Source: Sipunculus nudus (taxonomy: Eukaryota; Annelida; Sipuncula; Golfingiida; Sipunculidae). From it: a DNA stretch of 64,000 bases. The notes under the pieces were generated by a model. It was not told where the DNA came from, made no database searches, and saw only the letters and a program-made list of their open reading frames with translations. The position numbers and the translations under genes are program-made. How positions within the stretch are numbered: position 1 is the first letter of the stretch; the number at the start of each line of letters is the position of its first letter. Where the stretch lies: positions 32,980,008 through 33,044,007 of the forward strand of contig CM049313.1 in assembly GCA_026874595.1 (NCBI GenBank), read 5' to 3'. This document shows, piece after piece, positions 2,281 to 51,346 of this stretch.

Positions 2281-2439
2281 GTTTTGATGCTCTAATCTAG
2301 AGAATTAAAGATGGCAGGGAGGAGACAGAATAGAGAAGAATGGACAAACACCGGCAGCTTCGTCCATAAGCCACAGAGAGGCTGGTTACATCCTGACCAG
2401 CAGCTTCAGCCAGAGGCCGGTGTCTGTTACGGTGTCAGG
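2281..2439 (+). CDS. SHC1: SHC coding exon 1 (5' UTR plus N-terminus)
   Basis: The acceptor is a pyrimidine-rich tract ending TTTCCAG at 2280. The 5' UTR is 2281-2310, with an in-frame TAA at 2293, and the ATG is at 2311. It encodes 43 residues matching the p52-specific N-terminus and first PTB strand, ending ...CYGVR. The donor GTAAGT starts at 2440. An acceptor just before the 5' UTR implies a further upstream non-coding exon that I did not find. Confidence 0.93.
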
Positions 2440-5400
2440 GTAAGTTTCATTATCGAGGGGTAATTAGCATTCATGCATGATCATTTTCATCAATGACAGA
2501 TATATATTTCCACACAGAATTTTCAGAACCATGGCCTGATTTGATCTGTTCAAATTGTGTGTCATGGCTTAGTTAACACGGTACCATCTCTCATACAGAA
2601 ATTAACAGTTTTATATTTAAGTCTATTTTATGGTATTATTTCCTTTATTGAAACATGATAAAAAAAATGACTTTCCCTACATCACACTCCTCTACCAGCA
2701 TTTCTTATTGGCAGAAATTCAATTTTCTGTATCTGCTTTGTACTAAAATTTTGTATATCTAAATAACAGGAATAAGCTTTGTATGAGTAGAAAATATATT
2801 TTGATCTTTAATATGAAAATCTACTACATAGATGTACACATTCATTATTTACCTCAGGTAAACTAAAAGAAAGAGTTTCTCCTCAAAAATAAAATATATA
2901 TCTATATAGATGATTATGCATGAGATGCTGCAGGAATTGATTATTCTGAAACAAAAGTAAGAGCTTTTTGGTCTGAGAGATTATTAATGGTGTTAGACTG
3001 CTAGTGCTACCACCAGGTATGAATTTGGGTACACCTCGCTGTGCTTCTACCACCAATCTGTATTCAAAACGTGTGTGAGTTGATCTCATATACATTTGTT
3101 GCCTCAGGTTTTCAGACAAATTATTTATCACTTAATTCCATCTGTATAATCTGGGTGTGCAGTAAATAAAAGGTCTTTTCAGATGCTTTAAAGCGATATC
3201 AACCTTGAATTTTGGTTTGAATCAATATCCAATGAATAATTATATTTATATAATTTCTCCCTTATTTTTCAGTACGTCGGCTGTATGGAGGTGAAGGTTT
3301 CAATGAAATCATTGGATTTTGAGACCAGGACAGCAGTGGCAAAGTGAGTCATATTGAAAACTGATTCCTTCCAACTTGTATGAATTAACAGTAATCAGTT
3401 GTAGGATAAACTGTATTATTTCAAAGATGAATATACATTGACAAAATCTTTAAATTCATATGAACTTTGTTTATAGAGAATCCATCAGCAGAGTTTGTGA
3501 AGCAGCGGGACTCAAGACAGCAACCTCAAAGAAAAAGAAGGTACTGGTAATCATATAACAATTTTAATGATAACCTGCATAATATAATGAGCACCGCTTT
3601 CAGCTTTCTCTTTTATTCAAATCCCAAGTTGTAAGAGCCCAACAACGAGATATTTCAAACTGCTGGAATCTTAAAGCATGCTTATTACAGACATAATAAT
3701 CCAAGTAATAAAATTGTCCAATCTTGTGATTGATTACATGGACAAAATATTTTGAAATGTACAGTATGGATATTTACATAGCCAATGGTTGAATTCTAGG
3801 CTGATCATACATCACTGAAATAAATGAAAAACATCAGAAAAGGTATTAATAAGCCTATATTGTTTTATGAGTCGGTTCATGCTGCCCACATGTAAGTGAA
3901 CAGCTTTGCTGAATACCTATTTTACTCAAAAATAGTTGTCTCATGTTGGAGTGGGTGTGAGAATAGTGCCCCTTTGCTTAAGATAAAGATTACTTGTGTG
4001 AGACTTGGCATTAGTGTTCTTCAAGTCCAAGTCAGAGTCCATTTAAAGCACCTTAAAATTTGAGATGATCAAATGTATTTGTAAGTTTACACAAGGTTTT
4101 TACTTAATATTGAATTACATTTAACTTCCAGTGCAGAGACTGAGTTTGGTACATAGTATAAACTTGCTTTTGTAATGTTCTGTTCATGTAAGTCTTTTTG
4201 GTGGGCTTTATGTATTGAATTTCAAGCCTTACGTGAGAATTTTTTGTCCCCCGCTCCCGCGGAATGGGGGACCTTGATTTGGGTTTGTCTGTCTGTTTGT
4301 CCATCTGTCTGTCTGTCTGACAATAACTTTCCTAAATATTATCCTGCTTCATTCAAATTTTGGTCAGTGCTCTCATGCTCACCTTGGTTGGGATTGGTTT
4401 TGGAGTGTCTATCTGAAAAATAATTCTGTCCAGCTCAAAAGCAAAATTATCAAATTTTGATCCAATTTCTCAATTTTTTTTTTTATGTTAGCTTGATGAT
4501 GTTTTGACATGTCATAATGGATCTGTTTAAGTTTCATGTGCCCTCAAGATTTTCTCCACGTCATAATTTTGGTTGCTTATCAAGCATGAAAGACAACAAG
4601 ACCCAAAAGCTGTGGATATTAATTCCACAAGTTTGGTAGTTTCTGCTTGACTCAGGATGGACTCGGCCTGATTTTTTATTAGTCCCAAGCCCCGAGTCAG
4701 GGTACATGTGGAGTCCAGGACCCTCAAGTCCAAGTCCCTGAAAAAGTGGACCTGGCCTTGAGTCCATGTCCAGACTGGAGTTCTACATCCCTGCTTGGCA
4801 TGTCTTCTAATGTCATGTTGATGACGTGGCTTGGAGTCACATTGTACAGTTTTCCTCTCTCGGTAGGGCAAGGCATAGCCTGGTAGTTATCGTTTGGGAC
4901 TGTAAGCTGAAGGCCCTGAGCTCAAGCCCAGTTGCAGACCACCTGTGTTAAATCTCAGAGATTCTGTAGCTCTGGACAACAGGTTATGCTGACTGGATTA
5001 TTCTTAGCAAGTGCAAATAAAACCTTAAATTCAGCAGGTTTAATAGTCTCAAATCATTCTTATCATGTTTGTAGCATCAACCACATTCAGTGCTCAGTAC
5101 CACCAACAGGCCATGGAACTGTCCGTAAAAAATACCTGCTGTCACACCTGTGTGGGAAGCTACAAAGAAAACTGATTAAAGAGTAAAGCATAATATGTAA
5201 ACATAGCAAATGGCCAGCTGAAGCAACAACATTCTTATAATGGTGACCTTTTGTTGAGTCTTAGTTAAGCCTGATCAGATGTTGTGCTGATATTGTGATT
5301 TGAAAATGTTTCCTGTTAAGGGATTTCAGTTACTCTCAATTTATACAGATTTTGTGATAAATTCCTTCCTCTTGAAAATGTATACACACATATGTTTATA

Positions 5401-8400: not shown

Positions 8401-11400
8401 CTAAAACCAAGGTTCCTTGTACTTGTGAATTATTTTGTTTAAATTTTGTTTTGCAGGACACAGTGGACTTTGTAGCATATGTTGCAAAAGATGTTATGAA
8501 TGTGCGCGCATGTTACGTATTGGAGTGTGGAGGAGGCCTAGCACAGGATGTCATCACAACCATGGGACAAGCGTTTGAACTCCGCTTCAAACAGTACCTG
8601 GCAAACAGACCCACCGCAGTAGACATCAGTACAAAGTGAGTCTGCCATACATATAAAAGATAAGACTTAAAATATAATGTTCATTCATGAAACAAGACAA
8701 TCAGACCCAGGCCCAGCTGCAATCCTTCAAATGAAGGGTCAATTACCATTTGATGTTTTACAGTGTAATATATTTTTACCTAGAGTCAAGATTTTTATGC
8801 CCCCACCACTGCAATAGTTTTACCCATGTCTGTCATTCCGTCATTCCGAAATGAAACAGTTGTACAGACTTAACATAGAAAATTTCATGAAAAATTGAAA
8901 TTTTCCAGACAGATCCATATGTACGGCCTTATTTTTCGCAATGCTTGCAGATATTGGCCTAATTTTTGGTGTGTGGGTGCTAATGACCACTTACAGATCA
9001 AGTTCAGGTTTTGGCCTGGTTGACCTACTTTTGACTGTATGACTGCTGCTGCACATAGGAAATTTCATGAAAATGGAAATTTTCATGATAAATGCACATG
9101 TACAGACTTTTTTTCACAGTGCTTGTGGATATTGACCTGATTTTTGGTATGTTGGCATATATATGACCACTTACAGATTGAATTTGCATTTTGTCCCTGT
9201 TGACCTACTTTTGTCTATATGATGGCTTCTGAACATAGAAAAAATAGAAATTTTCATGATAATTTCACATGTACACACATTTTTTTTTGCAATGCCTGCA
9301 GATATTAGCCTGATTTTCCTTGTGTGGCTAGATCATGACAAGTTACAGATAGAGTGTGCGTTTTGTCCCGTATGACGGCCAAAGAACCAAAAATTTCATG
9401 CAAATAGAAATTTTCATGATAAATTCATATATACTGACTTTTTTCACAATGCTTGCAGATATTGACCTGATTTATGTACCTCACCAGATCATCACCAGTT
9501 ACAGATCGAGTTGCATTTCGTCACTGTTGACTTACTTTTGAACATATGACAGCTCCTTAACATAGAAAATTTCATAAAAATTGACATTTTCATGAAAAAC
9601 TCACATATATGGACTTTTTTTTTCAATTTCTGCGGATATTGGCCTGATTTTTGGTGTGTGGGCACATAATGACCAATTACAGATCATAGGTTCACCTACT
9701 TTTGACCATATGATAGCTCCTGAACATAGAAAATTTTACAAATTTTAACAAACATTTCTAATTTGCTCCAGGCGGGGGCATTCATGTCGTTCCGACACAT
9801 CTAGTTTAAAGTAGAAATGTGGTGCAATTGTTGACTTTCAAGTCTATTAATACATACATACATATAGACAGACAGGTAAGTAGACTTAATTGTAATACCC
9901 TTAATTTCCACTTCAGGGATAAGGGGTAGTAAATTATCAGCACTAATTATCAGGACCCTTCACAGGGTATATTCCCAAAACCCTTATTGTATCCCCAGAC
10001 AAAGTCGGGATTCTATGGTTTCACGATGATCCCGCCGCCGCAGAAAAACCTTGTGAGCAGGATAACTCAAAAAATATTTCACTGATCTTTTTCAAACTTT
10101 ACATTTGTATGGATATAGGTAAGGGGCTAAGCCCATTTAAAATGGGGTCATGACCTTTGCTAGGAGAGTGACCTTGACCTTGAATAGTTCTATTTTTGCT
10201 GAAAATAACACAAATTCTTAAATATCTCAAGTAAGCTTGCATGGACTGGTAAAAAAATCAAGGTGACCGAAGATCTTGGATAGCCTTGTGATATACCGAC
10301 AACTGATGGCACCACCTATTATCCTTTCTTGTTTTTACGCCTTTTAATACCCCCATAATTGCCACTTGACAGTACTCTAAGCATTATAAGTCAAAAACTA
10401 ATGGACAGATTTCTTTCATATTATGCACATGTAGAGAGATGGGTTATGGGATGAGGTCTATTTACATTTGGGTTATGACCTTTACCATGAGAGTGGCCTT
10501 GACCTTTAATGTGTCCATATTTGGTGAAAATCACACACCTCTTATGATACCTCCAGTGTTGATAGCCATATGGATTTCAAACATGACTTATGTATGGCAC
10601 ACCACTAAAGTAAGAACCCTATAGGTTCTAGGGTCATGAGGTCAAAGGTCAAGGTCACTTGACTCGCATCTTAAAAAAAAGATACTGTGGATGCATTTTA
10701 AGCCCAATTTTTATCCCAGGTCTTCCATCTTGAATATATAGCTCACTTGCCAATAGTGGATGATCCATATAAATTTTGGGGTCAAAGGTGAAGGCCACAG
10801 GAGCTATCTGTCAAAAAATTAGTTTCTTGATGATAATTCCTGCTTATATTGATGTATTGATTTCAAACTTGACTTACATATGTCCCATTAAAAAAGCAGG
10901 ACTCCAATTGATTTTGGGGTCATGAGGTCAAAGGACAAGGTCACAGGACACATCTTCAAAAAGATTGTGGATGCATTTTCAGCCAAACATTTATCTCAGT
11001 TCTTTCATCTTGCACATATGGTTCACCTGCCAAGAGAGGAAGAACCCTATCAATTTTGAGGTCAAAGGTGAAGGCCACAGGAGCCTTCTGTCCAAAAATT
11101 AGTTTCTGGATGATAATTCCTGCTTTTATTGATGTATAGATTTCAAACTTGACTTGTATATGTCCCATTGGAAAAGCAAGACCTGATTTGATTTTTGGAT
11201 CATAAGGTCAAAGGTCAAGGTTACAGGACACATCTTTAAAAAGATTATGGACGCATTTTAGCCAAACATTTCATCTCAGACATTTCATCTTGCACATGCA
11301 GTTCCCCTGCCAATAGAGGAAGAAGCCTGTTAATTGTGAGGTCACAAGGTCAAAGGTGAAGGTCACAGGAGCCATCTGTCCAAAAAATTGTTCCTGAGAT

Positions 11401-14400
11401 GATAATTCAAGCTTGGATTAATATATGGATCAAACCTGACATAGATAGCCCATCAATAAATCTAGACCTATATTGATTTATATATAAAAATGGATGATCA
11501 ATAACAATTTTTGGGTCACAAGGTCAAAGGTCAAGGCCAAAGGAGCCATCTGTCAAAAAATTAGTTTCTTGATGATAATTCCTGCTTTTATTGATGTATT
11601 GATTTCAAACTTGACTTACATATGTCCCATTAAAAAAGCAAGACCCCAATTGATTTTGGGTCATGAGGTCAAGGTCACAGGACCAACATCTTCAAAAAGA
11701 TTGTGGATTGATAGATGGAAGAAACAATAATTGCTTGCCAAGTGTCAGTATATGCTGCTAAAAACGGGGGCCTATTCTTAAAGTGGGGGGGGGGGGCGGG
11801 GCGTACTATGTCTGGGGATACTCTGGCACCTGCGGTGCCAAGAAATGTCTAGTTTTTTATGGAGGCTGTCGGCTGAATTGTTCCTTCAACCTTAGGACCA
11901 GGAAGGTTTACACTGCTTCACTTGTATTGAAAATTACCCTAGAAAAATGCAAACATGGGTACTGGGACGTTACTAATTATAAGTATGACTCTTGTGTAAA
12001 ATGGATATTTATTAAAGTACTTAACAACCTTGCTTATCCAAATAGTAAAGACTTAAAGTCTCTAAAATATTTTCTTATGAATACTTTTTCTGAAAAATTT
12101 GTAAGAAAATTCCAAAATAATACCTCAAATAAAATAAGAATATTATGAAATATCAAATAATTCATAGCCAGGTGAATATAATACCCACAAGATCTGCACA
12201 TTGGCCATCACTTTCTTGTGATTTGCCAATCATTTCTTTCTCATGATTGGCTGATCATTTATTTCTTGTGATTGGCTGACTAATGAAACAGAAACTTTTT
12301 GTATAACTTGGACATATCTTCTCGTAAAGGTCAAGTTAAATGTTAAATTACATTGCATAATCTGTTGTATTACTAAATTCTGTATATACAGGTTTGAGAA
12401 TCCAATGTTTGGTAAGACATCAGACTCCTGGGGGAACGAACCTGATTATTACAATGACAGACCAGGAGCTCAGCCACCGGAACCTGAGGTCCGAGCAGCA
12501 GCATCAGTCTACTCAGCAGCTCCAAACAACCTGCCAGTCAGTGTAAGTACAGACAACCTGTGAGTCAGTGTAAGTACAGACAACCTGTGAGTCAGTGTAA
12601 GTACAGACAACCTGCCATTCAGTGTAAGTACAGACAACCTGCCAGTCAGTGTAAGTACAGACAACCTATCAGTCAGTGTAAAATCAGACAGCCTGACAGT
12701 CAGTGTTAATTTAAGTACAGACAACTTTCGAGTCAGTGTAAGTACAGACAACCTGCCAGTTAGTGTAAGTACAGACAACCTGTGAGTCAGTGTAAGTACA
12801 GACAACCTGCCATTCAGTGTAAGTACAGACAACCTGCCAGTCAGTGTTTGTACAGACAACCTATCAGTCAGTGTAAGTACATACAACCTGCCAGTCAGTG
12901 TTTGTACAGACAACCTGCCAGTCAGTGTAAGTACAGACAACCTGCCAGTCAGTGTAAGTACAGACAACCTGCCAGTCAGTGTTAGTACAAACAACCTTCC
13001 AGTCAGTGTAAGTACAGACAACCTGCCTGTCAGTGTAGGTACAGACAACCTGAGAGTCAGTGTAAGTACAGACAACATGTCAGTCATTGTAAAATCAGAC
13101 AGCCTGACAGTCAGTGTTAATTTAAGTACAGACAACTTTCGAGTCAGTGTAAGTACAGACAACCTGCCAGTCAGTGTAAGTACAGACAACCTGTGAGTCA
13201 GTGTAAGTACAGACAACCTGCCATTCAGTGTAAGTACAGACAACCTATCAGTCAGTGTAAGTAGAGACAAAATGTCAGTCAGTGTAAGTACAGACAACTT
13301 GCCAGTCAGTGTAAGTACAGACAACCTGCCAGTCAGTGTTAGTACAAACAACCTGCCAGGCAGTGTAAGTACAGACAACCTGTGAGTCAGTGTAAGAACA
13401 GACAACCTGCCATTCAGTGTAAGTACAGACAACCTATCAGTCAGTGTAAGTACAGACAAAATGTCAGTCAGTGTAAGTACAGACAAAATGTCAGTCAGTG
13501 TAAGTACAGACAACTTGCCTGTCAGTGTAAGTACAGACAACCTGTCAGTCAGTGTAAGTACAGACAACCTGTCAGTCAGTGTAAGTACAGACAAAATGTC
13601 AGTCAGTCTAAGTACACACAAAATGTCAGTCAGTGTAAGTACAGACAACTTGCCAGTCAGTGTAAGTACAGACAACCTGCCAGTCAGTGTTAGTACAAAC
13701 AACCTGCCAGGCAGTGTAAGTACAGACAACCTGTCAGTCAGTGTAAGTACAGACAACCTGTCAGTCAGTGTAAGTACAGACAAAATGTCAGTCAGTGTAA
13801 GTACAGACAACTTGCCAGTCAGTGTAAGTACAGACAACCTGCCAGTCAGTGTTAGTACAAACAACCTGTCAGTCAGTGTAAGTACAGACAACCTGCCAGT
13901 CAGTGTAAGTACAGACAACCTGTCAGTCAGTGTAAGTACAGACAACCTGCCACTCAGGGTGAGTACAGACAACCTGCCACTCAGGGTGAGTACAGACAAC
14001 CTGCATGTCAGCACATGTACATGCATTCTCAAGGTAAAAAAAAATTTGAATATTTGTGAGTTTTGATAGGTTTTTTCTTAATAATTACAGTCTTCCCAAC
14101 CTTCAACCACAGCTTAGTGGAGTTGAAACATTATGTAATAAGTTATGCATAAGCTTCAGATTTGTAAATGTGTCAGTTTTTATCAGTTTATGTTCATTCA
14201 CAATTAAATCTCTCAACACTTTTTGAAGAAACAAGCATTAGTTTTGTTTAGTTTTAGGTAATCCATTGACTAAGGGATGGGCCTGCATTTTTTTTTTGTT
14301 TTATAAGTGTGGTAGACATCATTATTGGTAGAACCAAAACTCAAACAATATTTTGATGTAGCCAGTGTGCCACATAAAGCGTGAATTGATCATATATGTT

Positions 14401-17400
14401 CTTAGTTAATATCGGTAAAACCCTGTTGTATTGTAATCAAGAGGGCAGTGTTGTTTCTGTGTAGTAAAAGGCTCTGTGGGTTTTTGGGGGGCAATAATGC
14501 AATTATATGTACCAAGAAATATAAGCCTAGGATTTCTGCACAAAAGGAATGATTTAACAATCCAAATAGGAGCAAGATATGAACAGTCTTAACCACCAGA
14601 TGGTTCTTGCCACTGTGTTTGTCTTCCTTTTAGATTACTTCATAACAGGCTAACATAGATATTGGAATGAACGCATGCCCTACTTGCAAAGGCAATAATA
14701 TACAATATACCTAGATTAAGGATTAGATAAGACATCATAAGAAATAGAGGCAGGTATCTCCACCAAAAAAAATCTTTTAGGGAATGTGTTAAATTAAAAA
14801 AATATTTGTATACCCAAAGCTGTGTGCAATAAATATTGAATATCATTAACAGATGGGGCAGTACACATCAGTGAAGGAGAAAGAACCTCTGTATGACAAC
14901 AAAGGAGAGGCAGACCTTATCAAGTTAAATGATGGATCACAGACTTACGATAATTCTGCAGGTAAGAATAGTCATTGGTTTTAATAACTTGTAGTCCATT
15001 CAACTACCCCAGTCCACCTGATTGTTTGCAGTTATCTCCAGGTAAGCCTAACTTGCCAAACAAAATTTGCAATAATTGCAGAAAGAGGACAATTTTAGGT
15101 ACCATACCTGCTTATGATAAAAATATTTTTCACCTTAAGGCCTGGTTGATATGTTTCATGTACATCAGTGGTTCATGGCATCCCAAACAGGTGACTGTTG
15201 TTTATCCATCAAGAATATAGTTTTGAAATAATGTGTGATGTAAAAGTGAAGTGATGGCACAAGGAGAATACAACCCCCCTATAAACAGGGTTTAGCAGCT
15301 CTTGATAATATGTCCAATGAACGTGGGTGCTTCTTTTATGTATAATGTTCATTATGATGTCACTGTTCCCTGCCATATCCATTTCATAGGTTGTGGAAGA
15401 TGTCACTACAGAATAAATTAGTTTCTCATTAAGTGGTCTTAAATTGTTTACAGGAAAATGACAGGTAGGATGTTATTATTAGTTGTATCCCAATACAAAG
15501 TCGGGATACAATGGTTGGAGCACTGTCGCGCCGCAGAGATTTCGTTTGGACAAGATAACTCAAAAAATATTTTACGCAACTTTATCAAACTTGACATGTG
15601 CATAGATATATTGGTTAGAGGACAAAGCATTTATAAAATGGGGTCATAGCCATTACTAGAAGAGTGACCTTGACCTTAAAAAGATCCATTATGGGGGAAA
15701 TCACACAAATTTTTAAATATCTCAAGAAATCTGGCGTGGATTGATAAAAAAATCAAGTTGACCAAAGATCTTGTGTAGTGTTGTCAAGTACCGGAAACTG
15801 GTGGCACCACCTGTTATCCTTTTCTTGTTTTCGTGCCATTTAATACCCCCATCATTGCCACTTAACAGTACTGTGAGCATTATAAGGAAAAAACTAATGG
15901 ACAGATTTCTTTTATACTATGCCTATACATAGACATTGGTTATGGGATGATGTATAACTAAATTGTGGTCATGACCTTTCCTGGGAGAGTGGCCTTAACC
16001 TTGAATATTGCCATATATGGTGAAAATGACACAAAATCATAAATATCTCAATAAGGGATGCGTTAATTCATGCAAAAATCACATTGACCAAAGATCTAGG
16101 ATAGCTTTGTCTTCTGCAGAAGACAGGTGGCTCCACCTTCTGTTATTTTCTTGTTTTCGCACCTTTTAATACCCCATCATTGCCACTTGACTGTACTGTG
16201 AGCATTATAAGTCCAAAACAAATGGACAGATTTGGCTGAGATTGTGCATGTCCATTGATCTTGGATACCTCAATCTTATATTTAAGACTGGTGGTGCTAT
16301 CTGCAATCTTAATTGTGTTGTGTCCATCTGTACGTTTGCTTTCGGTGAAAATTGCTCATATCTTCAGAGTGGTTCAAGGTATTGATCTGAATTTCTGCAT
16401 GTCCATCCATCCTGGAAAGTTTTCTCGTATCCCAGACAGATTGCGCCAAATACCTTCCCCTGTTTTTTATAGAATAATTTAATGCCCTTTTCTTAAGAGT
16501 GATTCACCTTATTGGCCCCCATATTTGGTGAAAAATATTGTTTCTCAAGTTGATAGATGGAAGAAACCATAGTCACTTGCCAAGTGTCAGTATAAGCTGC
16601 TAAAGATGGGGGGGGGGGGCTATTCTTAAAGGGGGGGGGGGGGGTTATTGTCTGGGGAAACTAATAGATAAGAATAACTAATTAATTATGCATTTTCCTC
16701 TTACTGCCCTTTTGTTTTGGCATTCTTTGACTTGCAAATAAAAAAGGAATCATAAAAACACAGGTGGACAGGGGGGATGGAACAGACTGTAGTTGATTAA
16801 CAGTCATGCTGAGCTTCAGGGATGACTCTTTCTAAACCTTCAGTCCTTCAGTCAGCCTTTCTAAGATAGGAACCTGTTAAATCTTATATTGAGGCAAAAA
16901 CAAAGAACTTTTAAACCCAGGAAGTTCATACCTTATACATAGACAAGTCCTAGTGAGATCTCTCTGGAACTCAATGTATGGTTGAACACAGTGATGTATT
17001 TTGCTGACTGCAAAGCGGCTACACTTTCTTGTTATTATGAAAAATTTAAAGGCAGTTTGGTCAAGCAGTTCTGTAAAAATGTTATTAACAATAGAAAAAT
17101 GCCTGTATTATTGGACCATTTTATACAAAAATTCATAATAGCTCATTGTTTGTATTTCATAACAAGGTGCCATTGGCGGAGCAGCAGCTGTCCAGACTTA
17201 TGACAACCCACAAGGATCAGCTATTGGACCAGTTGCCTGGAACCAGAGCAACATCTATGATAATCGTGGACCTGCAGCGTCAGGGGCCAGCACAGAGAGT
17301 AGCACCTCGTTAGATCCATTTGATATGAGTAAGTCATCATATCATATAATAAAACCTCTCACATCAGTCTCATTCTGGTTGACTCTGTGCAGGAACGGCC

Positions 17401-20400
17401 ATATATGCTTTAATTGATACCCTAAAATGATGTCACATGAAAGTTCTAGAGTACTCAACACAGTTCTAGACAACGCCGTGCCGGTGATATTCAAACAGGT
17501 GGTGGTAACAGTAACTATGCAAAGCTAATTTCTCATGACCAAAACTGAAACAGAATAATATGTTTATGGAAAAAGCTCTGACAAAAATTATCAATTATTT
17601 GTTGTGTTCTTTAAGAATATTCAGGTTGATCAGACAAAATTGAATGGTGATGATTTAATTACAGAGCCATTTGGAGAATCTCTCAGGATGCAGGAGAAGC
17701 AGGAACCAAAACCACTGGCATCACTTGAAGATGAAGAATGGTTCCATGGCAAGTTGTCACGGCAAGAGGTATGCCATGGATACCATTAGGTTGCCTAGTA
17801 CAGGTCTGGCTGCCAGTGCTGAAACAAACCTTGGATGGTGTTTTCTAGATCAATATAGATATAATCTTGTATCTTACTCATAACAGCAAATAGATTCAAA
17901 TTAATTCACTTAATTCTTTATGAGTCAAATGAATTAGACAGTTTCAATACCTTGATGTTAGCAAGCAAACAAAGACAAACATAATTAAAATGGATCTTAA
18001 GATACTGTGATAGATATCCCAATCATAAGAAGTATTGCAAACATAAGAAATTACAGTCAACTCCAGAGGGGAATTTAAGCCTTGACCCAAAGAATCTTAA
18101 AGCCAACTCTATCTTTGATACTAGTGAATAATGTTTTTTTTTTTAGTTCACTCTGTGAACTTATGCCATGGCGCAGCGTCCGCCGTCCACTGTCCACTGT
18201 CAACTGTCCACCGTCCACCGTCTGTTACCAAATATCTCAACAGCCAAAGCAGCTACCTTCATGAAACTTTGCAGAATTACTGATCATGGGATGGACATGC
18301 AGAAATAAGCTTTTGGTGGCGCCACCTATGTTGACCTACTTTCTGCGGGAAGAAATGGTCTTTTCGACTTCTTTCAAGATAAGTCATAAAGTATTAATAT
18401 TTTGGCCTTCATATCATAGTCAACAGTTCCTTAGAGGAAGGGGAATAATTTGATTATAAATTCAGTCAAGTCATATTCAAGATGGCGTCTCTACGGAACT
18501 TCAAATTCTGTCGATCGCAAAATATGACAGCTTGATGTGTTTCTACACATGTATTGTCTGTTACCAAATATCTTAGAAACTGCTGCAGCCTTCAGTTTCA
18601 AATTTCACAGGAATATTGATCATATGACTGCCAGATGATTTTGACCTCCAGATGGCGCCACCTGTGTTGACCTACTTTCTGCGGGAAAAAATGGTCTTTT
18701 CCACTTCTTCCAAGATAAGTCACAAAGTATTGAAATTTTGGCCTTCATATCATAGCCAACAGTTCCTTAGAGGAAGGGGAATAATTTGAGTATAAATTCA
18801 GTCAAGTCATTTTCAAGATGGCGTCTCTACAGAACTTCAAATTGTGTGGGTTGCAAAATTTAGCAACTTGATGTGTTTCCATACAGGATGCATTGTCTGT
18901 TACCAAATATTTTCGGAACTGCTGCAGCCTTCAGTTTCAAATTTCACAGGAATATTGATCATGTGACTGCCAGATGATTTTGACCTCCAGGTGGCGCCAC
19001 CTGTGTTGACCTACTTTCTGTGGGAAAAAATGGTCTTTTCCACTTCTTCCAAGATAAGTCACAAAGTATTGAAATTTTGGCCTTCATATCATAGCCAACA
19101 GTTCCTTAGAGAAAGGGGAATAATTTGAGTATAAATTCAGTCAAGTCATATTCAAGATGGCGTCTCTACGGAACTTCAAATTCTGTCGATCGCAAAATAT
19201 GACAGCTTGATGTGTTTCTATACATGATGTATTGTCTGTTACCAAATATCTTAGAAACTGCTGCAGCCTTCAGTTTCAAATTTCACAGGAATATTGATCA
19301 TATGACTGCCAGATGATTTTGACCTCCAGATGGCGCCACCTGTGTTGACCTACTTTCTGCGGGAAAAAATGGTCTTTTCCACTTCTTCCAAGATAAGTCA
19401 CAAAGTATTGAAATTTTGGCCTTCATATCATAGCCAACAGTTCCTTAGAGGAAGGGGAATAATTTGAGTATAAATTCAGTCAAGTCATTTTCAAGATGGC
19501 GTCTCTACAGAACTTCAAATTGTGTGGGTTGCAAAATTTAGCAACTTGATGTGTTTCCATACAGGATGCATTGTCTGTTACCAAATATTTTCGGAACTGC
19601 TGCAGCCTTCAGTTTCAAATTTCACAGGAATATTGATCATGTGACTGCCAGATGATTTTGACCTCCAGGTGGCGCCACCTGTGTTGACCTACTTTCTGCG
19701 GGAAAAAATGGTCTTTTCCACTTCTTCCAAGATAAGTCACAAAGTATTGAAATTTTGGCCTTCATATCATAGCCAACAGTTCCTTAGAGAAAGGGGAATA
19801 ATTTGAGTATAAATTCAGTCAAGTCATATTCAAGATGGCGTCTCTACGGAACTTCAAATTCTGTCGATCGCAAAATATGACAGCTTGTTGTGTTTCTATA
19901 CATGATGTATTGTCTGTTACCAAATATCTTAGAAACTGCTGCAGCCTTCAGTTTCAAATTTCACAGGAATATTGATCATGTGACTGCCAGATGATTTTGA
20001 CCTCCAGGTGGCGCCAGCTGTGTTGACCTACTTTCTGTGGGACAAAATGTTCTTTTCCACGTCTTTAAAGATAAATCACAAAGTATTGAAATTTTGGCCT
20101 TCATATCATAGCCAACAGTTCCTTAGAGGAAGTGGAATAATTTGAGTATAAATTCAGTCAAGTCATTTTCAAGATGGCGTCTCTACAGAACTTCAAATTG
20201 TGTGGGTTGCAAAATTTAGCAACTTGATGTGTTTCCATACATGATGTATTGTCTGTTACCAAATATCTTAGAAACTGCTGCAGCCTTCAGTTTCAAATTT
20301 CACAGGAATATTGATCATGTGACTGCCAGATGATTTTGACCTCCAGGTGGCGTCACCTGTGTTGACCTACTTTCTGCGGGAAAAAATGGTCTTTTCCACT

Positions 20401-23400
20401 TCTTCCAAGATAAGTCACAAAGTATTGAAATTTTGGCCTTCATATCATAGCAAACAGTTCCTTGGAGGAAGGGGAATAATTTGAGTATAAATTCAGTCAA
20501 GTCATTTTCAAGATGGCGTCTCTACAGAACTTCAAATTGTGTGGGTTGCAAAATTTAGCAACTTGATGTGTTTCCATACAGGATGTATTGTCTGTTACCA
20601 AATATTTTCGGAACTGCTGCAGCCTTCAGTTTCAAATTTCACAGGAATATTGATCATGTGACTGCCAGATGATTTTGACCTCCAGGTGGCGCCAGCTGTG
20701 TTGACCTACTTTCTGTGGGACAAAATGTTCCTTTCCACTTCTTTCAAGATAAGTCATAAAGTAATAATATTTTGGCCTTCATATTATAGTCAACAGTTCC
20801 TTAGAGGAAGTGGAATAATTCTAGTATAAATTCAGTCAATTCATTTTCAAGATAGCGTCTCTATGGAACTGTGTCATTTGCAAAATTGACAGCTTGATGT
20901 GTTTCTATAAATGATGTATTGTCTATTACTAACTATCTTAGGAACTGCATCATGTGACTGCTAAATAATTTGACCTGCAGGTGGCGCCACCTGTGTTTAC
21001 CTACTTTCTACAGGTTGTAATGGTCTTAACTGCTTTTTCCAAGATATGTCATAAAGTATAAATACTTTGGCTTTTATGTCATAGTCAACAGTTCCTTAGA
21101 GGAAGAGGAATAATTTGAGTATAAATTCAGTCAAGTGATTTTCAAGATGGCATATCTACGGAACTTGATGTGTTTCTATACATGATGTATTGTCTGTTAC
21201 CAAATATTTTAGGAACTGCTGCAGCCTTCAGTTTCAAATTTCACAGGAATATTGATCATGTGACTGCTTAATGATTTTGACCTCCAGGTGGTGCCACCTG
21301 TTTAGCTGCTTTCAGCAGGCTGTAATGGTGTTTTCTGCTTTTATCCAAAATATGTCATTAAGTATTTATTTGTTATAATCCACAAAAACAGAGTCTCCTC
21401 TAGGACCCTTGGACTGATATTTCCAAAACCTGGCATACTTGTTCCCTCACCTATGTAGTTGAAGGTAACAATGATGGAGAACCTTTCTGTGCAGTACAAA
21501 CCTGGGTTTCTTTTATATAACAACCCTCAATCTCAGGAGTGGTTCAACATATTTAGCTGAAATTTTGCATATTCATAGATCTTGGACTCCTCAGACTTAC
21601 ACTCAAGACTGATGATGCCATCTGCAATTGTTTTCCCATGGCATCCCTGGTACATTTGCTGTGGGTGAAAATTGCTCATATCTCAGAAGTGGTTCAATGT
21701 ATTGATCTGAAATTTGTCATGTCTATCCATCTAGGAAAGTTTTCTCGTTAACCAGACACCTACACTACTTTTTGCGGAGTGTCCAACTTTACATTTGCCA
21801 TCTGATTGTCTTAGTGTTTGTTCAGTGTATTGGGTTGAAATTGTGCATGTCCATAGATCTTCGTCACCTCAATCTCGTAAACAAGACTGGTGGCGCCATC
21901 TGCAATAATTTTCCTGTGGTGTCCATTCATACATTTGCTTTTGGTGAAAATTGCTCATATCTCAGGAGTATTGGTCTGAAATTTGGCATGTGCAGTCATC
22001 TTGGAAAGTTTTCTCATAAACCATATAGGTGACGCCACCAACCTTGTGCAATAGGACAATGTTTACTTGGAAAGGAATGAATGGTATTTTCACATTCATT
22101 TATTTTTTAATCACTTGCCAAATTGCACAGTAATTCACAGAGTGAACATTAGACCCCTGGGTCTCTTGTTTCAATTTTTTAAACTCAGTGTTTCTCCCAT
22201 TTCTAGGCTGAAGACTTACTCAAGATGGATGGAGATTTCTTGGTGAGGGAGAGTGCGAACTCCCCAGGCCAGTACGTACTTAGTGGCACCAATAATGGGA
22301 AGGTTAAACACCTATTACTCGTGGATCCAGAGGGAGTGGTGAGTTTAACTGCACACAGTTGTCTGAATAGGATCATTTCATATAACATCATATTATAAAA
22401 TTACAGGGGTAGATATAGGATTTTGGAAATAGGGAAGGGGGTTCCAACCAAGAAAACTTATGAGAAACCCTTAAAAAGTTCTCAGGTTCCAAAAAGGGAG
22501 AGTCTATGCCACAAAGATTTATTTGAAATCCTTAAAACCTGTTGGGGCAGCTGACAGGGATTGGGTCTTGGACACCTCGGTCCCAATGGGGACCTGATTC
22601 TTCATTATCTCACAAAGAAACACATGGGGCAATAATGGTTTGTGATATACATTACTTATAAAGTGTATCATACACGTAAATTCCAAGCTAATGCTCTTCC
22701 TTATTCATAAAAAGATAACTGAACTGTCCCTCATAAAATTGGTTTAAATACTGTAATGAAAATTCAGTGTTCCCCCTACTGTTGGATGACTAATAATTTA
22801 ATTGGAATACAAAACGGCCAAGCCAGATTTTTCCTAAGTTCAGACTGTATTTGAAAATGAGTAATTGTATCCGCCAAAACAGAGTTTTGCGGATACTATG
22901 ATTTCAGTTGCACGAGGCCGCCGCCACACACCACATAGATCTCAGGAGAACTCCTCCATAACCACTGGGCAGTTTTTTTTAGCAAACCTGTGAGCTTATG
23001 CGATGGTGAGGCGTTGTGTGTCATGCGTCGTACGTCATCTGTACTTTAACCATAGCTATCCAAAAAATGGCAGAAGCTAGCATCACCAAAATTTTTTGCA
23101 AATAATCAGTCAACTGAAAAACTATCGAAAATTATTTTTTTCTAACTGCATTTTCTTAGATTTTATAGGGAAAAAGGTTTAAAAATATTCTTCTCCGAAA
23201 CTGTCCAGCCAAATTGTCCAATATTTCACAGAAATGATCCCTCGAACAATCTCTCTCAAGTTTGTTTGAATTGTTGTAGTTTGGAGATTTTTGGCTGAGT
23301 TACAGGAGGTTGAACTTAGTCATCTGTCCAAAAAAGCACACTAAAATTAAAATCTCAGAAACCTCTAGAGCTATAATCACTATATTTTATACCAAGTTTG

Positions 23401-36743: not shown

Positions 36744-36868
36744 TTAAAATTTGACAACTTTTGGTCCCTTGGCCACTGGTTTCTTCAATGGAGCTTTTGA
36801 TAATAATGAATCTTCCTCATCTACACTTCTTGTACTGTCTATTGTGGCCAGATGATAATCAAATATAC
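36744..36868 (-). CDS. ZCCHC9: ZCCHC9 coding exon 5 (C-terminus)
   Basis: Forty codons end in KKPVAKGPKVVKF and TAA. The C-terminal PKVV(K/N)F is the family signature. The acceptor is TTTCTTTCAG. No canonical AATAAA is seen in the next 200 bases downstream on the minus strand, only AT-rich variants. Confidence 0.9.
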
Positions 36869-39800
36869 CTGAAAGAAAACAGAAACAAAAATATTTATAC
36901 TGATAAGTAAAAACTATCCAGTTAGTTGTAACCACAAAATATTTAGAGAATAAGATTTTCCCCACTTGACTAGTTATATAAATAAAAAAAATTACACAGC
37001 TAATGCTGTTACTATATATTTTTATTTAGAGGTAGGGTTTGGATCAAAAATATTATGCATCAGTTTTCCGACAAAACAAGGGACCCATGTATTATATTTG
37101 ACATGTGTATTTGAATTAGTGGTAGGAATCAGTTGTAAAATCATAGTCGATGATAGAAAGAAAATATGACAGATTATCAATTATTAATAAGTTTATTTTA
37201 TGTACCATCTTTATTACTGTGAAATATACTCTATAGAAATATACCTAAAATATGGACTAAGTAACTCATCCTAACTTCTACATCACACTTGAAAGGGCAC
37301 GGTAATGGCCAGGTTGTTGACACTTATTCATTGCAAAAGGTTAAGTTTTAAAGCTGTTTGCAGTTTTGGGCCCAATCTTTCTCATATCTCTGACAGAATA
37401 AGAATATTTTATCAGGATAATAGGACTGTGCATACATAATTTTTTTTGTGATCAATTATGCATATATGCAATTAATTTAATCATTATGAAAGAGGATGAC
37501 CAATCATTAATATAATTGATTAATTGGCACACAACTAAATAGAATGATCTTTATTTTATTTCCTTCATTCAAATTTGTCTTTACACAGACAATGTAGGCA
37601 AGTATTTGACCACTTCTGATCTTCTGTATTTTGTATTAGTCTGGTGTTTTAACCACTACATTATGCAGTTGGCTGGAAGCAGTCCTCAGATCCCAATAGT
37701 TATTCAGGAATTAGATCATGCTCATTGACAGGGCCATATGCAAAAAGGTCCCAGTCTTGCAGTCCTGAATTGGATTAAATGTGGCTTTAGGTCAGTTAAC
37801 ATACAGCAGAATGATGAGCAGATTACTGTCTATATGTAATCCTGGATGTGACCATCATAATGCACAGAGTGTGTGGTTTATGACAGTGTGTCTATTATGA
37901 CTCAGTTCCTTTACCTTGTGTGTGGTTAATGACAGTGTGTCTATTATGACTCAGTTCCTTTACCTTGTGTGTGGTTTATGACAGTGTGTCTATTATGACT
38001 CAGTTCCTTTACCTTGTGTGTGGTTTATGACAGTGTGTCTATTATGACTCAGTTCCTTTTCCTTGTGTGTGGTTAATGACAGTGTGTCTATTATGACTCA
38101 GTTCCTTTACCTTGTGTGTGGTTAATGACAGTGTGTCTATTATGACTCAGTTCCTTTACCTTGTGTGTGGTTTATGACAGTGTGTCTATTATGACTCAGT
38201 TCCTTTACCTTGTGTGTGGTTTATGACAGTGTGTCTATTATGACTCAGTTCCTTTACCTTGTGTGTGGTTTATGACAGTGTGTCTATTATGACTCAGTTC
38301 CTTTACCTTGTGTGTGGTTTATGACAGTGTGTCTATTATGACTCAGTTCCTTTACCTTGTGTGTGGTTAATGACAGTGTGTCTATTATGACTCAGTTCCT
38401 TTACCTTGTGTGTGGTTTATGACAGTGTGTCTATTATGACTCAGTTCCTTTACCTTGTGTGTGGTTTATGACAGTGTGTCTATTATGACTCAGTTCCTTT
38501 ACCTTGTGTGTGGTTAATGACAGTGTGTCTATTGTGACTCAGTTCCTTTACCTTGTGTGTGGTTAATGACAGTGTGTCTATTGTGACTCAGTTCCTTTAC
38601 CTTGTGTGTGGTTTATGACAGTGTGTCTATTATGACTCAGTTCCTTTACCTTGTGTGTGGTTTATGACAGTGTGTCTATTGTGACTCAGTTCCTTTACCT
38701 TGTGTGTGGTTAATGACAGTGTGTCTATTGTGACTCAGTTCCTTTACCTTGTGTGTGGTTTATGACAGTGTGTCTATTATGACTCAGTTCCTTTACCTTG
38801 TGTGTGGTTTATGACAGTGTGTCTATTGTGACTCAGTTCCTTTACCTTGTGTGTGGTTAATGACAGTGTGTCTATTGTGACTCAGTTCCTTTACCTTGTG
38901 TGTGGTTTATGACAGTGTGTCTATTATGACTCAGTTCCTTTACCTTGTGTGTGGTTTATGACAGTGTGTCTATTATGACTCAGTTCCTTTACCTTGTGTG
39001 TGGTTTATGACAGTGTGTCTATTATGACTCAGTTCCTTTACCTTGTGTGTGGTTAATGACAGTGTGTCTATTGTGACTCAGTTCCTTTACCTTGTGTGTG
39101 GTTTATGACAGTGTGTCTATTATGACTCAGTTCCTTTACCTTGTGTGTGGTTAATGACAGTGTGTCTATTATGACTCAGTTTCTTTACCTTGTGTGTGGT
39201 TTATGACAGTGTGTCTATTATGACTCAGTTCCTTTACCTTGTGTGTGGTTAATGACAGTGTGTCTATTATGACTCAGTTCCTTTACCTTGTGTGTGGTTA
39301 ATGACAGTGTGTCTATTATGACTCAGTTCCTTTACCTTGTGTGTGGTTTATGACAGTGTGTCTATTATGACTCAGTTCCTTTACCTTGTGTGTGGTTTAT
39401 GACAGTGTGTCTATTATGACTCAGTTCCTTTACCTTGTGTGTGGTTTATGACAGTGTGTCTATTATGACTCAGTTCCTTTACCTTGTGTGTGGTTTATGA
39501 CAGTGTGTCTATTATGACTCAGTTCCTTTACCTTGTGTGTGGTTAATGACAGTGTGTCTATTGTGACTCAGTTCCTTTACCTTGTGTGTGGTTTATGACA
39601 GTGTGTCTATTATGACTCAGTTCCTTTACCTTGTGTGTGATTTATGACAGTGTGTCTATTATGACTCAGTTCCTTTACCTTGTGTGTGGTTTATGACAGT
39701 GTGTCTATTATGACTCAGTTCCTTTACCTTGTGTGTGGTTAATGACAGTGTGTCTATTATGACTCAGTTCCTTTACCTTGTGTGTGGTTAATGACAGTGT

Positions 39801-42800
39801 GTCTATTATGACTCAGTTCCTTTACCTTGTGTGTGGTTTATGACAGTGTGTCTATTATGACTCAGTTCCTTTACCTTGTGTGTGGTTTATGACAGTGTGT
39901 CTATTATGACTCAGTTCCTTTACCTTGTGTGTGGTTAATGACAGTGTGTCTATTATGACTCAGTTCCTTTACCTTGTGTGTGGTTTAGGACAGTGTGTCT
40001 ATTATGACTCAGTTCCTTTACCTTGTGTGTGGTTTATGACAGTGTGTCTATTGTGACTCAGTTCCTTTACCTTGTGTGTGGTTTATGACAGTGTGTCTAT
40101 TGTGACTCAGTTCCTTTACCTTGTGTGTGGTTAATGACAGTGTGTCTTTTGTGACTCAGTTCCTTTACCTTGTGTGTGGTTTATGACAGTGTGTCTATTA
40201 TGACTCAGTTCCTTTACCTTGTGTGTGGTTTATGACAGTGTGTCTATTATGACTCAGTTCCTTTACCTTGTGTGTGGTTTATGACAGTGTGTCTATTATG
40301 ACTCAGTTCCTTTACCTTGTGTGTGGTTAATGACAGTGTGTCTATTATGACTCAGTTCCTTTACCTTGTGTGTGGTTAATGACAGTGTGTCTATTATGAC
40401 TCAGTTCCTTTACCTTGTGTGTGGTTAATGACAGTGTGTCTATTATGACTCAGTTCCTTTACCTTGTGTGTGGTTTATGACAGTGTGTCTATTATGACTC
40501 AGTTCCTTTACCTTGTGTGTGGTTTATGACAGTGTGTCTATTATGACTCAGTTCCTTTACCTTGTGTGTGGTTTATGACAGTGTGTCTATTATGACTCAG
40601 TTCCTTTACCTTGTGTGTGGTTAATGACAGTGTGTCTATTGTGACTCAGTTCCTTTACCTTGTGTGTGGTTTATGACAGTGTGTCTATTATGACTCAGTT
40701 CCTTTACCTTGTGTGTGGTTTATGACAGTGTTTCTATTATGACTCAGTTCCTTTACCTTGTGTGTGGTTAATGACAGTGTGTCTATTATGACTCAGTTCC
40801 TTTACCTTGTGTGTGGTTAATGACAGTGTGTCTATTATGACTCAGTTTCTTTACCTTGTGTGTGGTTTATGACAGTGTGTCTATTACGACTCAGTTCCTT
40901 TACCTTGTGTGTGGTTAATGACAGTGTGTCTATTATGACTCAGTTTCTTTACCTTGTGTGTGGTTTATGACAGTGTGTCTATTATGACTCAGTTCCTTTA
41001 CCTTGTGTGTGGTTTATGACAGTGTGTCTATTATGACTCAGTTTCTTTACCTTGTGTGTGGTTTATGACAGTGTGTCTATTATGACTCAGTTCCTTTACC
41101 TTGTGAGTGGTTTATGACAGTGTGTCTATTATGACTCAGTTCCTTTACCTTGTGTGTGGTTTATGACAGTGTGTCTATTATGACTCAGTTCCTGTACCTT
41201 GTTTTTGCTGATTCTCAGGACAATCTTTCTTGAAATGTTCTACAGATCCACACAACTTACAGCACCCACCTGTACAGGAAAAAAAGAAACATAACATGGG
41301 AACCATCCATTAAGTCAACAGTAAAACTATTTTGAATTTTTTATTTAGTGTATTTGAATTTTTGTATGTTTAAAGCATAATGTCTATGATGTAGTGCATG
41401 CTTATGCAGCAACTCATGCAACATGAAAATATGCAATTCACACTATGTACAGGAAATGAAAGTTTGCATAATTTTACATAATTTTGCATAACTGATGAAT
41501 TTCCAAAATTCTGTGTTAAAGTTTCAATGGGCACCCCTAGCCCTATATGATAAAACTAGCAGAACCAAAATTGATCAAGAAACAAGTGACCCATGGGTCA
41601 TGACGCTCAGTTGACTGGGAAGAGATTTGCAAAAGGAAATTTTATCATCTGAAATTTTATCAAACAGATAAACCAACAGGCTGAGATTGTGCCTGTATTA
41701 ATTTATCTAAAAAATAGAGAAAAAAATGGTAAACTTTAAAAAAAATACAGGTGGCTCCACCAGTCTGCAGAAACTAATATAAACACTTAATGGTCAATAT
41801 CCATGCAAAGAATCATGGTGGTCTCTGGATTAGTTGTTCAGATACTTCAGCTTTTGTATCAAATTTTTCATTATTCTGGGGGGTATTTTGGAGCCATACA
41901 GCTTAATGGGTATGGGTAACAGAGACCTAATTTCAGGTTTCGATGGAGATTTTTCATGGGTCTCCCTGTGTGTTAAGAATGAAGATTCTAGGTCCAGTTG
42001 TTATGATTTGTGGCATGTTAACAGATGTTCATATCTTTAAAGGTCTCAAAAATAGAGAAAAAAATTCGAAAAAAGCCCAAACAAATACATGTGGTGCCAC
42101 CAGGCTGCAGAAACTGATGAAACACTCCATGATCAATATCCATGCAAACAATTATGGTGATCTCTGCATTAGTTGTTCAGATACTTCAGCTTTTGTATCA
42201 AATTTTCCGTTATTCTGAGCTGTACTTTTGAGTGCCATAACTCAAAGGATATGGGTAACAGAGACCTAATTTCAGGTTTCCATGGATACTCTCATAGGTC
42301 TCCCTGTGTGTCAAGAATGAAGATTCTAGGTCCAATTTGAACCTTGTTGACAGATAACTACATCCTTAAAGGTCTCAAAAATAGAGAGAAAAAAATTGTA
42401 AAAATTTGAAAAATACAGGTGGCGCCACCAGTCTGCAGAAACTGAAAAAAAACATCTCATGATGCCAAAAATCATGACTATCAGTGATGTAGTTAATCAG
42501 ATATTGAAGTTTTTTTATGAAATTTTTTACTATTCTGGGGGGTACTTTGGGGCCCCATAGCTCGAATGATATGGGTAACAGAGACCAAATTTCAGGTTTC
42601 CATGGAGACTTTTCATAGGCCTCTCAGAATGTCAAGAATGAAGATTCTAGGTCCAGTCTTTACGATTTGTGCCCTGTTAACAGATGTCCACATATTTAAA
42701 GGTCTCAAAAATAGAGAAAAAAATTCGTAAAAAAATAAAAAAATACAGGTGGCGCACCCAGGCTGCAGAAACTGATGAAACACTCCATGATCAATAACCA

Positions 42801-49703: not shown

Positions 49704-49814
49704 TTGGCATTACCCCTCTGTTACCTAATTAATTTCACATTATGTATTATATCACACAATTTTAGTAAAGTTAATAGAAGACAAATAAATACATATATGG
49801 AATAATATTAAAGT

Positions 49815-51346
49815 AGGGCAATCTCAAATGCTATTGCCACCGTTCTGCCAAATGTTCCAATTTTGCATTGTTGGAACCACATTAAAAACGACTTAAAAAG
49901 GTTCGTTCAAAAACATGATGATTACGCGAAATGGTCAGAATACAAAGTAGATTTGATCAATATTCTGCATAATGCTTCCTTGTCAGACTTCGAAGGAAAT
50001 TGTGAGAATCTTTCCCTGAAATGGCATGAAACTGTAAGAGAATATTTTGATAAGCACCTTAAATCAGATTTGATGAAATACGCATATGTGCCTATTTTAG
50101 AAGAGTGTAACGTGTATACATGACAGTGCCTCCGGACTTGCTAACTACGGAGCTGAATCGTTTAATGCTGTAATTAAACGTCTAAGAAATTGGAAAGAAG
50201 CACCAACAGACACCTTGACGTTGTGCTTTTATTATCTACAAAATTATTATCTGAAAGAAATTTTGCGGGGTTATTGTAATTTAGGTTCCTATCATTTAAA
50301 GTCAGAAAATATGCATTTATTAGAAATACCTGAGGATCAACCATTCCCCAAGGATACTTGCGCCCCGGGACTAATAGTTCAAAAGGTAAAAAACAATATA
50401 AACCAGTTCATGTCTGATCCCCCGTCACTTCAATCAGATTTGTTGATTCTGATGCTGAGACAAAAGAGGAGAACATAAAATTGGATTTCGTTAGAAAGAA
50501 TCTGACACAAATTGAAAGGGTACAAGATATAATAAATAACGGAAAAATATAATTAGTTGCGAAATTTGGTACTTTCATTGTGGAGGGCAACAATGACAAT
50601 AAATATGCCGTAACTCTGTTCCCAAAAGAAAAATATCAGTGCGCAGCAACAAATATTTGCTACCATATTCTTACAGCCAGGAAATTTATAGGTATGGATG
50701 TAATCGATCAAAAACGCAAACTAAATGTTTCACTAAAGTGTCGCCGTAGTAAGAAAAGGGTGGCTAGAAAAACGGATAGAAAACAGCCGAGAAAATCAGA
50801 TTTCGTGTACGAATTTGAAGCTGCTCCCGATACCGATGTTTCCATGATAACCTCGCCTAGAGATAGAACTCTGCAATCTCCAGAGCTAGATGACCCGGTT
50901 CCCTTTTCGAAACAAAAAACTATAAACAGGGTACTGTTGATAAAATTAAGACACAAGCTACCCCAGCCAAAACACCATTAAATAATGTTACATTTAAAAT
51001 ACACCGAAATCAATTTTGAAAAATTCAGAACGGAAACGAGGGAGAATTAGACTTGATTTTAGCGAGAGTAATAGTAACAGTAAAGAAAAAAAGTAAAGAC
51101 GACAGTTCATCCTCGCTTCCAACTCCTAATTGTAGTCCAGTAGGGATGCCGGAAAGCATTATCGATACACAATCTTTTGAAATGAGTCCATCCTCCACAC
51201 CAAAACAGACCACAAATAAAATAACCCAGGAAAATTGTGTGACCTCCAACGAATGTAATCGCCCGCTAAGCGAAATTCGTAAAGTAAACCCCGAAGATAA
51301 CACCAACCAAAAAAAAAAAATCGACTCTCGCTAAAACGAAATAAAT
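49815..51346 (+). pseudogene. Broken MULE transposase with SWIM-type zinc finger
   Basis: Three consecutive reading-frame segments carry a recognisable MULE transposase C-terminal half. Segment 1 (to 50123) includes LHCWNHIKNDLKRF and LSLKWHETVREYF. Segment 2 (about 50122-50478, shifted frame) includes NYGAESFNAVIKRLRNWKEA and FYYLQNYYLKEILRG. Segment 3 (about 50476-50981, shifted back, with a TAA near 50550) includes YAVTLFPKEKYQC and NICYHILTARKFIGM. The CYH and preceding C fit a SWIM finger (CxCxnCxH), but the first Cys of the CxC pair appears to be Tyr. A Ser-rich, Lys-rich tail continues to about 51334. Frameshifts and stops make it inactive. The N-terminal part with the first catalytic acidic residues is missing. 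Confidence 0.75.

Follow-up and report, generated by a model that had tools for sequence, protein, structure and literature searches.

A minisatellite in an SHC gene of the sipunculan Sipunculus nudus spans an exon-intron boundary, such that copies of the predicted 5′ splice site at which it begins recur in most of its approximately 55 units. The array was found in a 64,000-nucleotide stretch of the genome, C8:32980008-33044007 (the window). We read it as a tolerated minisatellite of the ‘mirage’ type, and not as a sink for U1. Specifically, it probably grew from the junction itself, and its later donors would then be tolerated decoys rather than parts of a regulator.

Both the identity of the gene and the position of its exon end can be read from an open frame and from homologous proteins. 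Six plus-strand exons (8457-8635, 12392-12542, 14853-14961, 17167-17328, 17665-17768 and 22207-22338) join into one open frame, with AG preceding and GT following each of them, and the joined product matches the PTB and SH2 domains of Pfam. This product has 910 protein homologues at E ≤ 0.001, the best of which is 50% identical across the whole query, and SHC-transforming proteins form the majority of the named rows among the best 120 of the 910. In a tree of SHC proteins, the window sequence is grouped with unnamed rows, outside the molluscs and nemerteans. The exon that ends at the array (12392-12542, plus strand) is followed in frame by the exon at 14853-14961 (plus strand), and this open 12542/14853 junction, together with a donor position defined by homology, supports the claim of an earlier note on this DNA that the array adjoins a real exon end.

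In an alignment of 36 homologues, the window has NLPVS|MG at the junction, where several bivalves and one nemertean have NLPVS|DG; gastropod and other rows are less well conserved at this exon end. No repeat of the exon-end piece is present in the aligned stretch examined in these 36 homologues. Because several orthologues keep the exon end and do not carry the repeat at the protein level, the exon end most likely came first, and the array arose from it. Seeding at a 5′ splice site, as proposed in the earlier note, is therefore the most likely origin. Two other tandem repeats lie in the same gene region, namely a 25-bp repeat of 2.7 copies at 12212-12279, approximately 113 bases upstream of the array-bearing exon, and a 339-bp unit repeated 7.8 times at 18315-20948, in the intron between the SH2-coding exons.

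TRF places the minisatellite at 12526-14011 on the plus strand, with a period of 27 bp, 54.6 copies and a score of 2143. When split by a pattern rule, the array resolves into 54 recognisable units and a degenerate one at the edge, and two units measure 33 bp. Unit 1 consists of the last 17 bases of the exon (12526-12542) and the first 10 bases of the intron. The exon end and its donor had already been assigned to this first unit, with an exonic part counted as 16 bases, one too few. The earlier estimate of about 55 units, most of them with a donor copy, agrees well with the present counts. Specifically, the main unit reads CAGT|GTAAGT, and the donor position holds GTAAGT in 39 of 55 units and GT in 51.

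The units fall into 25 types arranged in an ordered pattern, and the repetition of the block PQJR (units 28-31 and 41-44) fits the duplication of blocks of several units. Growth from the junction most likely proceeded by tandem duplication, and would have involved slippage or unequal exchange. A search for the 27-bp unit elsewhere in the genome found none, with all 23 matches falling inside the SHC array. Variation among the units was compared position by position in the 52 full 27-mers. At the six donor positions, 17 cells are non-major, or 2.8 per position versus 3.8 per position elsewhere, and circular hexamers of the unit range from 5 to 57 such cells. This per-position variation in the 52 full 27-mers carries no signal of selection that keeps or removes the unit donors. 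The donor hexamer varies like the remainder of the unit, as expected of a passenger, and is neither specially conserved nor eroded.

If dozens of units carry a donor, which of them should be used? Unit-by-unit donor scoring, which the earlier note had recommended, was carried out as an estimate of U1 pairing, that is, as the RNA duplex energy formed with the U1 5′ end. The first donor (GTAAGT, 12543-12548, plus strand) scores −9.7 kcal/mol, third among the ten donors of the SHC gene and of the ZCCHC9 gene described below. The same energy is predicted for 37 units including the first, with −9.9 kcal/mol for unit 27 and −11.5 kcal/mol for units 53 and 54 (13942-13995, plus strand), which read CAGG|GTGAGT. 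Besides the first, 39 units have a predicted U1 pairing at least as strong as its own.

The reading frame separates the first donor from all others. Only 1 of the 55 choices, the first donor, leaves the SHC frame free of stops, and mRNAs spliced from donor 2 onwards would all meet an in-frame TGA in unit 2 (12561-12563, plus strand). This stop sits 6, 33, 60 and so on bases before the new junction as successive later donors are chosen. Since the first copy alone keeps the frame open, the other copies are likely decoys. Use of a later donor would give a truncated product. Nonsense-mediated decay usually requires a distance of about 50-55 bases between a stop and the junction that follows it. 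From unit 4 on, the stop would lie at least 60 bases before the junction, and transcripts that use these donors would likely be decay targets if the usual distance rule holds in S. nudus. The earlier suggestion that the array could spread donor choice is conceivable given the predicted pairing of the 39 other units, but every later donor reads the TGA. We propose that exon definition would keep the first donor in use, with the later donors as passive decoys that the gene tolerates.

Other roles for the array were also considered. Nothing was found in support of U1 titration by the SHC array. A coding function was rejected, because the exon frame meets the TGA at unit 2. On the opposite strand, a stop-free frame of 522 amino acids crosses the array (12509-14077, minus strand), and most likely arises because the unit lengths can be divided by three. 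The acceptor-like TACAG reported earlier is indeed present, and pyrimidines account for about half of the 20 bases that precede it, a share as low as at the poorer of ten real acceptors. Specifically, pyrimidines make up 40-55% before the AGs of units 2, 10, 30 and 50 versus 40-90% at the ten real acceptors. Because 2 of these 10 have 45% pyrimidine or less, the measure is compatible with acceptor use by the units.

A second donor-copying minisatellite, which the earlier note omitted, lies approximately 24 kb from the first, in a ZCCHC9 gene on the minus strand. TRF and pattern matching place 68 copies of a 49-bp unit at 37869-41202. On the minus strand, the array starts at the donor of an exon with a zinc knuckle (41269-41198), where the sequence is ...CAGCAAAAACAAG|GTACAGG..., and its units read CACACACAAG|GTAAAGG. 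At exact 49-base steps, 66 of the 68 units have AAG|GTAAAG, the first has GTACAG, and one lacks the GT. Frame, homologues and alignment identify the exon at 41198-41269 (minus strand), which encodes the zinc knuckle GGCCKLCGSVEHFKKDCPENQQKQ and ends at the array, as ZCCHC9-like. The terminal exon at 36744-36868 (minus strand) joins it in frame, and 16 aligned homologues likewise continue across this junction, from the knuckle into the C-terminal part. The gene has five exons and a complete frame of 276 amino acids, and nearly all named homologues among the best 120 of 793 are zinc finger CCHC domain-containing protein 9 or similar. The later donors of this array lead to an early stop as well.

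The 27-bp and 49-bp units look unrelated. The two arrays are the only ones in the window with at least 10 copies of a unit of period 10-120, given that a 17-bp TRF row of 16 copies lies within the 49-bp array and that rows of 5-7 copies with periods of 11-14 overlap better-scoring rows. Both start at a donor, although the stretches within one unit of a known donor make up 0.9-1.5% of the window. Elsewhere in the window, open frames at 49812-51334 look like transposase remains, with one weak, below-cut-off Pfam match to MULE.

Donors in other parts of the genome were sampled through exons that encode protein kinases. From 138 kinase exon matches, 80, mostly short and exon-like, were picked by hand before sequence inspection; 76 were left after removal of overlaps, and 60 of these were examined. 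Of the 60, 40 extend 1.2 kb downstream and the other 20 are stretches of 0.5 kb. A plausible donor is present in 55 of the 60 stretches. Arrays of at least 5 copies (period 10-120) occur in 3 of the 40 longer stretches (L035, L029 and L060), and no array of at least 5 copies was found at the donor in the 20 stretches of 0.5 kb.

One of the three copies its donor. In L035 (1-1231; C4:93860513-93862006, minus strand), a 65-bp array of 18.9 copies runs to the end of the stretch and begins 19 bases, with one mismatch, inside a kinase exon that ends ...IAPEVLRSEPYSTK. The units inspected have AAG|GTAGAT, a copy of the predicted donor, and the copied exon end lies inside the kinase-domain match. In L029 (590-1196; C9:48357259-48358803, minus strand), 15 copies of a 40-bp unit follow the donor CAG|GTATGT from intron base 9 and do not copy it. 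The kinase identity of both exons is supported. The array of L060 (1-828; 50 bp, 16.6 copies) starts approximately 350 bases into the kinase intron, downstream of the exon, and, with 99% matches, is probably a young expansion. A further donor array is possible in a random stretch, L017, where units of a 29-bp array at 2422-3544 contain CAG|GTAAGT; the open frame of 113 amino acids before it has no Pfam match at E 0.01.

Random sequence contains 7 arrays of at least 5 copies in 190 kb. Against this background, we counted array starts at 69 donors (60 kinase donors and 9 of the window, with the SHC donor left out), none of which was picked for an array. Starts within 30 bases of a donor number 3 versus 0.15 expected (Poisson P 6e-4), and the donor-copying subset numbers 2 versus 0.08 expected (P 0.003), with a 30-base limit that was set once the cases were known, small counts and a short random sample. 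The use of the 55 plausible kinase donors instead of all 60 hardly alters the excess of array starts.

Motif counts across the genome give a less uniform picture. Three donor 9-mers (MAGGTRAGT) spaced 14-44 bases apart match 1,422 times versus 251 for the reversed motif, 327 for a motif with GT swapped to TG and 765 for this swap reversed, where a single large array can yield dozens of matches. When arrays rather than matches are counted, those among the matches listed number 15 for the donor motif on C1 and C2 versus 6 for the swap, approximately twofold (binomial P 0.08). Versus the 22 swap arrays on C1-C7 among the matches listed, the donor arrays give a P of 0.005. In the first 76.5 Mb of C1, the arrays among the matches listed are 4 for the donor motif versus 5 for the reversed motif. 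These genome-wide counts are equivocal, and we do not claim genome-wide enrichment from them. The claim of an excess is consequently confined to the exon-anchored counts, by which an excess of arrays at donors in S. nudus is likely.

Could the arrays meet splice sites by chance? TRF repeats cover 13.24% of the S. nudus assembly (PMC10212961), so tandem repeats are common, and a few arrays in such a genome might happen to include a donor. The random-sequence count of 7 arrays in 190 kb fits this idea, as does the near parity of donor and reversed-motif arrays (4 and 5 among the matches listed) in the first 76.5 Mb of C1. However, both window arrays of at least 10 copies start at a donor, within so small a share of the window, and 3 of 69 donors have a nearby array start versus about 0.15 expected (P about 6e-4, under the 30-base limit set after the cases were seen). 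We consider coincidence unlikely. A different reading assigns the copies a function. Splicing might be spread over a regulated ladder of donors, such that a set share of SHC transcripts is lost through the unit-2 stop and array length tunes SHC dose. The same TGA is indeed read by all later donors, the predicted U1 pairing of 39 other units equals or exceeds that of the first, with units 53 and 54 better, and the human IFI6 gene is reported to use two downstream units of its own repeat (PMC4526556). Against such a ladder, the donor hexamer is no better conserved than the remaining unit, lancelet mirages are reported to be neutral to splicing (PMC3087553, PMC3902484), and the same structure recurs in the unrelated ZCCHC9 gene. 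Regulation by the ladder therefore seems rather improbable.

The direction of growth could also have been the reverse, with an array or element arriving in the intron and overwriting the exon end by conversion. The units are numerous and partly homogenised, which counts in its favour, and the lack of a match to the 27-bp unit elsewhere in the genome is neutral as to a source since lost. However, the SHC exon end encodes residues kept in several bivalves and a nemertean, and the exon end copied in L035 lies inside a kinase-domain match, which makes arrival from the intron very improbable. An assembly artefact or a wrong exon boundary, either of which the earlier note would have taken as refutation, is scarcely credible. 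The assembly was built from HiFi reads with an N50 of 14 kb at 72x (PMC10212961), and reads of this length should span arrays of 1.5 and 3.3 kb. The variation among the 25 unit types is ordered, and no joined exon of either gene interrupts the open frame. We therefore favour the tolerated minisatellite that grew from the junction, for which the unrelated ZCCHC9 array, the donor copy in L035 and the L029 array at intron base 9 also count. Counting against it are the use of downstream units in IFI6 and the 39 later SHC units with predicted U1 pairing as good or better. Moreover, the direction from exon to array is one that we infer, and the exon end is less well kept in gastropod and other rows.

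A more far-reaching idea, which we offer tentatively and consider somewhat doubtful, is that S. nudus has a donor-directed minisatellite process. Arrays would nucleate at 5′ splice sites approximately twenty times as often as by chance, by a mechanism tied to splicing or to nascent RNA (such as U1- or R-loop-linked breaks) and independently of lancelets. If this is true, thousands of introns should open with a series of copied donors and would form a natural experiment in the spliceosome's choice among dozens of equal sites. If the excess at donors holds genome-wide, it would link splicing signals to the birth of repeats. Regardless of the process, an intron that opens with about fifty near-equal donors would show cleanly why the first donor prevails. 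Near-constant use of donor 1 would mean that the distance to the upstream acceptor, by exon definition, overrides U1 pairing. Otherwise, most transcripts would be non-productive.

Known systems resemble these arrays to differing degrees. Recursive splicing sites, in which an acceptor AG with its pyrimidine tract is joined directly to a GT donor, likewise place donor signals within a long intron. Unlike these, the main SHC unit, CAGT|GTAAGT, has no AG joined directly to the GT and no pyrimidine tract, with 40-55% pyrimidine before the AGs of the four units measured. Tandem duplication of AG/GT-bearing segments, a route to intron gain discussed in connection with mirages (PMC3087553), also copies splice signals, whereas the S. 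nudus case lengthens an existing intron. The minisatellite of human IFI6 (6-16, G1P3), with a unit of 12 nt, is similar in that a tandem repeat at an exon end offers multiple donors. Two of its downstream units are reported to be used (PMC4526556), whereas the S. nudus donors are predicted from sequence. Among the papers listed by our literature search, which covered few subscription papers, none reports minisatellites that span a donor in sipunculans or annelids, and a paper on earthworm metallothionein describes intronic minisatellites with no donor copies in the passages concerned.

The closest relatives are the mirages of lancelets, tandem duplications of exon-intron boundaries in the Adh3, globin, troponin C and PGBD5 genes that seem not to disturb splicing (PMC3087553, PMC3902484). 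The lancelet globin paper calls the mechanism that generates them unclear (PMC3087553). As in these minisatellite-like duplications, exonic and intronic bases of one boundary are combined in a unit of the SHC array (17 and 10 bases), and many units carry the splice signal (GT in 51 of 55, GTAAGT in 39 of 55). The ZCCHC9 array has 5 exonic bases per unit and GT in 67 of 68 units. The S. nudus units of 27, 49 and 65 bp fall within the 10-72 bp of Adh3 mirage units (PMC3087553, PMC3902484). The S. nudus arrays, read from one haploid assembly, differ in belonging to another phylum and in their size, with 55 and 68 units versus 6 and 3 in two BflGb6 globin haplotypes, and the search for them covered the donor side. 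The kind of structure is already known as a mirage, and what is new is that a sipunculan has two cases within 64 kb.
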